From positions 1 to 64,000 of the forward strand of contig NW_026516360.1 in NCBI RefSeq assembly GCF_025602895.1: a stretch of DNA of 64,000 nucleotides. The letters run 5' to 3'. Positions 59,741 to 60,877 of this stretch are shown here, in pieces. Each line of letters opens with the position of its first letter. Positions within the stretch are counted from its first letter, which is position 1. Under the pieces are notes generated by a model, which saw only the letters and a list, made by a program, of their open reading frames with translations, was not told the origin of the DNA and searched no databases. The position numbers were made by a program, and so were the translations under genes. The DNA is from Polychytrium aggregatum. Taxonomy: Eukaryota; Chytridiomycota; Chytridiomycetes; Polychytriales.

Positions 59741-60877
59741 CTAGGCAGTCAGATGAGGCTTCAAGATGGAGAGAAAATCTTCATCCGACGGGAACTTGAG
59801 TTTGCGAGGCGGGCCCAGCTTGACTCCTTTGATATGTATGATTCATGAAAGAAGTACATCAGTGGGTTTCGCGCCAGATGGGTCGGGGGGGGGCTACAGT
59901 CGCTATGCCGGCTGCCAACATGCCGGTGTTCTCCCTCGACTCACTGCCAACGAAGGGGCTTACCCGACCAGAGAAGTGTTTCTGTAGTGTGATGCGGGCC
60001 CGAGCAAGACGCAAGAGAATGAGATCGATTAAAGAGGCGATCCCGAACACACCAACGGCAAGCAGGGGCCTGAAGCAGCATGCCAGCCATAGACCCTAGC
60101 GGAATAGCGCATCCCATACCGTTTCCATCTCGGATCATCGTGACTTCAAAGCTTTTGGATCGAGGCTTTCTGACGTTGACCTCGACGACTGCCCCAGGAC
60201 AAACACCCAAGATCGCCTGTGTTGGAAAGCCCACAGCCGCAGCGGATCAATCGGTCGATTCAATTGGCTGGTCGTTGCGGTGGCTGCTCAGGACCACCGA
60301 TGAAGTGCAGACGCCAGTCATGATTTGCCACATCAACGCTGCATGGCATATCCTCGAGCGAGTCAAAAGAGTCGAGCGAGTCGAGGCTCACCTTGGTGAT
60401 TCGGTCTGCAGCAGTCTTGTACACGGATCAACTTTTGCAGCGCTCGATCTCGAACCGCAGCGGGCTGGGCGGCGGCGAGATCGGTACAGCCGCAGACTTG
60501 CTGTCGACAAGCGGGGATGGGTCCGTCTGGGCCGGCTCTGCGCACTCTTCCTTGGTGCAGACCTCAGTCTCGATCTCAGCCTCAGTCTCAGTCTCGGCCT
60601 TGGACTTGGACTCGGCCTTGGACTTGGACTTGGACTGGACAGACGACCTGCTCACAGGAGTGCTCGAACTGGGAGCTGTAGAACCGACTGCTTGACGCAC
60701 AGATCGTTTGGCGCTGCTCTTGGCTTCGAGCTTGATGGCTACGAGCTTGGTGGCCGTCGAAGTGGGCTCGCTGGCTTTCCGAACGGCCCGCGCCGATCTG
60801 CGAAGCGAGCGTTCGGGGCCACCGCCGTCACGACCGGGAGGGCCGTCGTCGGCAGGGACGGTCTTCTTCTTGGGCAT
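59741..60877 (-). CDS. SELENOH: Selenoprotein H homologue with in-frame TGA at the CxxU position
   Basis: Selenoprotein H is a nuclear thioredoxin-like redox protein. Minus-strand exons: 60877-60392, 60216-60120, 59981-59964 (18 nt) and 59826-59741; 229 codons including the stop. The N-terminus is basic (MPKKKTV) with a long Ser/Lys/Glu-rich extension absent from human SELENOH (122 aa). The fold starts at LRFEIERCKS, then TGA (60430-60428), then SVYKTAADRITK. The order matches the human CTSU motif, so TGA sits exactly at the selenocysteine. Downstream match continues: VEVNVRKPRSKSFEVTMIRD, LLWSGVKLGPPRKLKFP and a TAG stop at 59741. No intron can remove the TGA. Homology on both sides argues against a chance stop. 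If TGA were a true stop, the product would be 149 aa without the redox fold. Confidence 0.85.

Follow-up and report, generated by a model that had tools for sequence, protein, structure and literature searches.

A predicted selenoprotein H gene with an in-frame TGA at the selenocysteine position in a putative flagellated fungus

The window, by which we mean the whole 64,000 nucleotide stretch of DNA that was analysed, contains a selenoprotein H-like (SELENOH-like) gene on the minus strand that runs from 60877 to 59741 in four exons. The joined coding sequence is 687 nt long and consists of 228 codons plus a TAG stop, giving a 228-residue protein, and its sole internal stop is a TGA at 60430-60428 (codon 150). 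All three introns are GT-AG and the exon phases agree. The ATG at 60877 is the first in a reading frame that stays open for a further 291 nt upstream and has no ATG in that part. Exon 1 reads ...FEIERCKS-TGA-SVYKTAADRITK followed by gtgagc. An earlier note on this DNA had placed the gene at 59741..60877; both ends proved exact, and the four phase-consistent exons with one in-frame TGA that it described were reproduced in the joined coding sequence. The parts of the gene are as follows.

60392..60877, 486 nt, minus strand: SELENOH-like exon 1, with the start codon, the 149-residue Ser/Lys/Glu-rich N-terminal part and CxxU, ending in ...ITK before gtgagc
60428..60430, minus strand: in-frame TGA, codon 150, at the CxxU selenocysteine position (CKSU), the same in the second copy
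60120..60216, 97 nt, minus strand: SELENOH-like exon 2 of the joined gene model, AILGVCPGAVVEVNVRKPRSKSFEVTMIRDGN
59964..59981, 18 nt, minus strand: SELENOH-like exon 3 of the joined gene model, a microexon, (E)TLLWS plus split codons
59741..59826, 86 nt, minus strand: SELENOH-like exon 4 of the joined gene model, (G)VKLGPPRKLKFPSDEDFLSILKPHLTA-TAG

The window also holds a pair of related genes on the minus strand that combine NACHT-type (NPHP3_N) and WD40 parts, at 28801-32202 and 50265-54077. Their proteins are 81% identical over 991 residues and 56% identical over 516 residues in a C-terminal alignment, and their DNA is 98% identical over 3.5 kb. A domain scan of the 50265-54077 gene gave strong WD40 matches, and divergence between the pair seems to be more rapid in the WD40 part than elsewhere. 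At 34637-38047 on the minus strand a protein kinase is fused to Sel1 repeats, and adjoining it on the plus strand (39816-41684) is an ORF with Sel1-like repeats, a domain recognised by eye. A GATA zinc finger protein with a C-terminal BET-domain match below cut-off is encoded at 62263-63243 on the minus strand. The ORF at 58220-59011 on the plus strand is convergent with SELENOH, ends in TGA and gave only a weak TAF4 match below cut-off.

The family of the SELENOH-like protein was assessed using profile searches and alignment. Its 89-residue C-terminal domain matched the SelT/SelW/SelH model TIGR02174 at 39.1 bits (cut-off 34.2, E 6.8e-10), and the whole protein scored 21.4 bits against Pfam Rdx, just below the cut-off of 22.6. 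Alignment to a provisional human SELENOH sequence gave 40 identities in 85 aligned residues (47%). In this alignment the TGA falls on the human Sec and the block GPPRKLKFP is common to both; this C-terminal block is of the SELENOH type, in a comparison that covered SELENOH alone. The CxxU redox motif is CKS-TGA, residues 147-150. The homology to selenoprotein H past the TGA that the earlier note had claimed is therefore borne out by the above-cut-off TIGR02174 match together with the human alignment, and its placement of the TGA at the selenocysteine of human SELENOH held up in the same alignment to the provisional sequence.

Database searches with the domain matched two unannotated proteins (two of three candidates) with E-values of 4e-10 and 2e-8 and identities of 47% and 49%. 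Both of these homologues begin directly past the Sec position, a start that would fit an in-frame TGA upstream. The full-length protein used as query gave no homologue among 976 candidates, and no PDB chain was matched. A genome-wide search with the Rdx profile gave no match and missed the SELENOH gene of the window as well, and is therefore uninformative on SELENOH paralogues. The gene is a predicted selenoprotein H orthologue, with an Rdx (thioredoxin-like) domain behind a long low-complexity N-terminus. It resembles animal SELENOH in having CxxU at the same place, the Rdx domain and the FEVT and GPPRKLKFP blocks. It differs in having 149 residues before Sec, as compared to 43 in the human protein, and in that the fungal gene has no recognised SECIS. 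The long N-terminal extension described in the earlier note is real as an open frame of 149 residues before the TGA; the animal SELENOH N-terminus is basic too, though shorter.

A second copy of the gene was found on contig C397 with the same TGA in the same frame. Across 2089 aligned columns the two copies differ by 3 substitutions and 13 gap columns. The only coding difference is one in-frame 6-nt indel in a Ser/Lys repeat, and in intron 3 the copies differ in homopolymer length. In the same genome (64.7 Mb, 418 contigs) paired contigs carry SELENOH, tRNA-Sec, SepSecS, SPS2, SBP2 and IFT46, and eEFSec, PSTK and LYS2 were each seen on one contig. We infer that the paired contigs represent two haplotypes.

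The nature of the organism was assessed from three genes. LYS2 (alpha-aminoadipate reductase) was found as five segments on one contig that span profile positions 101-1379 of 1390; no segment by itself reached the whole-protein cut-off, and 12 of 14 prokaryote controls were matched by the profile as well, all without exceeding the cut-off. The flagellar transport protein IFT46 was found at two loci, both of which have a second copy. When compared to PDB, eEF1A scored 897 bits to two chains, which we take to be yeast, and 862 bits to the next, presumably mammalian. Taken together, these three genes suggest that the organism is a flagellated fungus. Many further matches to LYS2 positions of about 970-1187 were seen on C90, C373, C57 and other contigs, which may belong to a family of related reductases or adenylating enzymes. 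A TGA that had been flagged inside IFT46 was placed by eye at the end of an intron and rejected.

The same genome was searched for six components of the eukaryotic Sec machinery, a check that the earlier note had proposed. Candidate genes for tRNA-Sec, SepSecS, SPS2, eEFSec and SBP2 were clear (five of six), and PSTK was partial, a weak but probable match. Rfam gave seven matches for tRNA-Sec, two of which were above the cut-off of 47, at 68.3 bits, and ARAGORN called both of these copies tRNA-SeC with anticodon TCA. The ten above-cut-off matches to SepSecS lie on two contigs with five segments apiece, and one of these five has an in-frame TAG in both copies. SPS2 was detected on two contigs by eight TIGR00476 segments, none of which reached the whole-protein cut-off. 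In both copies an in-frame TGA lies within the first segment; its context reads MKG-TGA-GCKVPQE in the one copy translated, and this TGA-bearing exon matched selenophosphate synthetases with an E-value of 2e-17.

For eEFSec, five of the 26 TIGR00475 matches were translated. The locus at C223:554936-555118 with its surroundings had eEFSec as its best match (E 1e-31), with the nearest EF-Tu at 4e-11. Loci L026, L027 and L030, also matched by TIGR00475, were read as mitochondrial EF-Tu, eEF1A and eIF2-gamma and rejected as eEFSec. The SBP2 loci on C190 and C169 had SBP2 (PDB 7zjw_B) as best match, with an E-value of 1.2e-26 over query residues 1-138, and other L7Ae proteins at 0.8 or above. PSTK was found on one contig only as a partial match (4.7e-8 to the eukaryotic PSTK model; 32.7 bits as compared to a whole-protein cut-off of 382), and when this candidate was compared to PDB two L-seryl-tRNA(Sec) kinase chains came out on top, with an E-value of only 0.003. 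The earlier note had named a complete absence of Sec machinery genes as what would count against selenocysteine; tRNA-Sec(UCA), SepSecS, SPS2, eEFSec and SBP2 are present. Other selenoproteins were sought among GPx genes: none of the six matches had an internal stop, and both loci that were translated have Cys.

The SECIS element was searched for using Rfam SECIS_1. No match reached the gathering score in the window, and none was obtained in the SELENOH 3' region at E-values up to 10 or at one SPS2 copy. The genome-wide search gave no match and the control genomes gave none either, leaving the sensitivity of the model unproven; because there was no positive control, the absence of a SECIS match may reflect a limit of the tools. 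In the abstract of the 2019 study by Mariotti and colleagues, most fungal selenoproteins are said to have no consensus SECIS elements, and this may hold here too. Loose custom scans, which permitted CC for AA and were uncalibrated against shuffles, produced candidates in the 3' regions of both SELENOH and SPS2, none of them convincing. The best SPS2 candidates from two of these uncalibrated scans lie at +638 and +970, and the best SELENOH candidate of one scan overlaps a predicted hairpin.

59575..59636, 62 nt, minus strand: weak candidate non-canonical recoding hairpin (predicted fold), 105 nt past the SELENOH stop

This hairpin carries AUGAC on its 5' arm with no GA partner opposite in the predicted fold, and CC replaces AA near the apex. 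Cut out with boundaries that were chosen afterwards, it has an MFE of -24.4 and a z of -4.35. When SELENOH 3' regions were shuffled, 130 of 160 had a best 62-nt window at or below -23.5 kcal/mol, in a scan that used steps of 2 and missed the exact hairpin frame (-24.4). The SELENOH 3' hairpin thus appears not unusual for its region and is a weak candidate. The SPS2 hairpin was more unusual, being equalled in 3 of 160 shuffled regions; its z was -4.31 over 37 nt and -2.77 over 66 nt. Scanning with 110-nt windows gave a best z of -2.78 in the SELENOH 3' region (32 windows) and of -3.77 for SPS2 (35 windows). The latter was at +460, separate from the candidate SPS2 hairpin, and the window at +100 that holds this hairpin had a z of -2.27.

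The 5' arms of the SELENOH and SPS2 3' hairpins each carry CGGAUGACU, at about +109 and +148, and the common 5'-arm stretch of the 62-nt SELENOH and 37-nt SPS2 hairpins is CGGATGACT. Sharing between the SELENOH and SPS2 regions was compared to 3000 shuffles, of which 114 had at least as many 9-mers in common, 210 a 9-mer with ATGA, 488 an 11-mer and 91 two collinear 9-mers. As the hairpin and k-mer tests were chosen after looking, these results are suggestive only. A pattern of ATGA-13 nt-AAA present in both 3' regions was rejected; the shared stretch was within chance (equalled in 363 of 2000 shuffles), and the fold of the SELENOH stretch was poorer than that of shuffles (z +1.98; 195 of 200 shuffles did as well).

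We consider it very probable that the gene, of which there are two haplotype-like copies, is the SELENOH orthologue of a flagellated fungus of chytrid grade, and that its UGA 150 would be read as Sec by the resident machinery. Counted in favour of a Sec reading were the conserved family sequence on both sides of the TGA, with the TGA kept in two copies, and the machinery genes together with SPS2 as a second TGA-containing Sec gene. Counted against it were the lack of a recognised SECIS, the partial PSTK and the in-frame TAG in one SepSecS segment. Overall the selenocysteine interpretation of the earlier note is supported by these sequence comparisons. Following the established pathway, tRNA-Sec would be charged with Ser, PSTK would phosphorylate this Ser, SepSecS would convert the phosphorylated Ser using selenophosphate from SPS2, and eEFSec with SBP2 would bring the Sec-tRNA to UGA codon 150. 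The product would be an Rdx domain with a CxxU redox centre and a long low-complexity N-terminus. We infer Sec insertion at UGA 150, along with the expression, splicing and redox role of the SELENOH-like protein.

If the TGA were instead a true stop, the gene would be a pseudogene or would encode a truncated protein of 149 residues, in agreement with the lack of a recognised SECIS. However, the domain, exons and splice sites past the TGA are intact, the coding sequences of the two copies differ by a single in-frame 6-nt indel, and the position of the TGA is precisely that of Sec, in a genome that has the machinery and a TGA-bearing SPS2, making a true stop very improbable. We give still less weight to an assembly error at a codon that is really TGC or TGT (Cys). 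The CxxC form occurs in the SELENOH family and the copies differ in homopolymer length in intron 3, both of which would be compatible with such an error, but the same TGA is present on two contigs that differ at other sites, and the TGA of SPS2 is likewise found in both its copies.

Reassignment of TGA to an ordinary amino acid in the whole organism would leave two genes, SELENOH and SPS2, open under the altered code. Ten gene ends were read (SBP2 twice, eEF1A, SPS2 and six window ORFs) and four were TGA, four TAG and two TAA. The genes that end in TGA are both NACHT-WD40 genes, the Sel1 gene at 39816-41684 and the ORF at 58220-59011; TGA thus does not act as a sense codon in all genes. Both in-frame TGAs are at known Sec positions, and tRNA-Sec (UCA) and dedicated enzymes are present, so that reassignment is barely credible.

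Most fungi have lost selenocysteine use. Fungi are frequently said to lack selenocysteine, as in two 2021 papers (PMC7988114 and PMC8559351). Nine fungal species with Sec machinery, from Chytridiomycota, Zoopagomycota and Mucoromycota, are reported in PMC11378755, and SelenoH with Sec machinery is described as common to Harpellales fungi in PMC12611240. Fungal Sec use is placed in three early-branching groups, including Chytridiomycota, in PMC12611240, PMC10386755 and PMC11378755. The present gene and genome resemble the Harpellales SelenoH and the nine Sec-using fungi (Mariotti et al. 2019) in having a fungal SelenoH and Sec machinery. As a fungal Sec-type SELENOH and fungal Sec use are already published, the present gene is a further case and not a first one. 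Among the matches listed in a literature search, none was identifiable from its title or the beginning of its abstract as describing the present SELENOH gene. What the genome would offer is a long-contig assembly of a zoosporic fungus that has Sec machinery and no fewer than two Sec genes containing TGA, and, if the species is not among the published nine, a further data point for scattered Sec retention in fungi.

The SBP2 gene has an extended architecture. The exon for the second half of its L7Ae domain continues without a stop into ankyrin repeats.

C190:128737-126321 (L063), with a copy on C169 (L064), minus strand: SBP2-ankyrin gene, one open frame in both copies

The joined SBP2 protein, the start Met of which was chosen by us, matched Ank_2 at 6e-23 and L7Ae at 2.7e-6. 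It shares the L7Ae-type SECIS-binding domain with SBP2 (PDB 7zjw_B) and differs from it in that the predicted frame of the fungal gene extends into ankyrin repeats. In a 425-residue joined piece that ends with L7Ae, only residues 276-415 match SBP2 (628-767). Searching with the exon protein matched 2 proteins (7999 candidates scored), P0003 and P0004; L7Ae is absent from the Pfam domains listed for them, and P0003 has ankyrin repeats by eye. No paper joining SBP2, ankyrin and selenocysteine was found in the literature search. A remodelled form of recoding, in which SBP2 fused to ankyrin repeats would read a non-canonical hairpin that has no GA quartet, is conceivable and, in our judgement, unlikely. 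The SELENOH gene makes fungal UGA recoding without a consensus SECIS testable, and SBP2-ankyrin is a concrete protein to test. The two copies of the SBP2-ankyrin exon are separated by 3 synonymous and 17 non-synonymous differences and by 20 gap columns. The first 440 residues of the exon, comprising the L7Ae end and the ankyrin repeats, have 1 synonymous and 0 non-synonymous differences, and 12 of the 17 non-synonymous differences are within an acidic repeat at 507-534.
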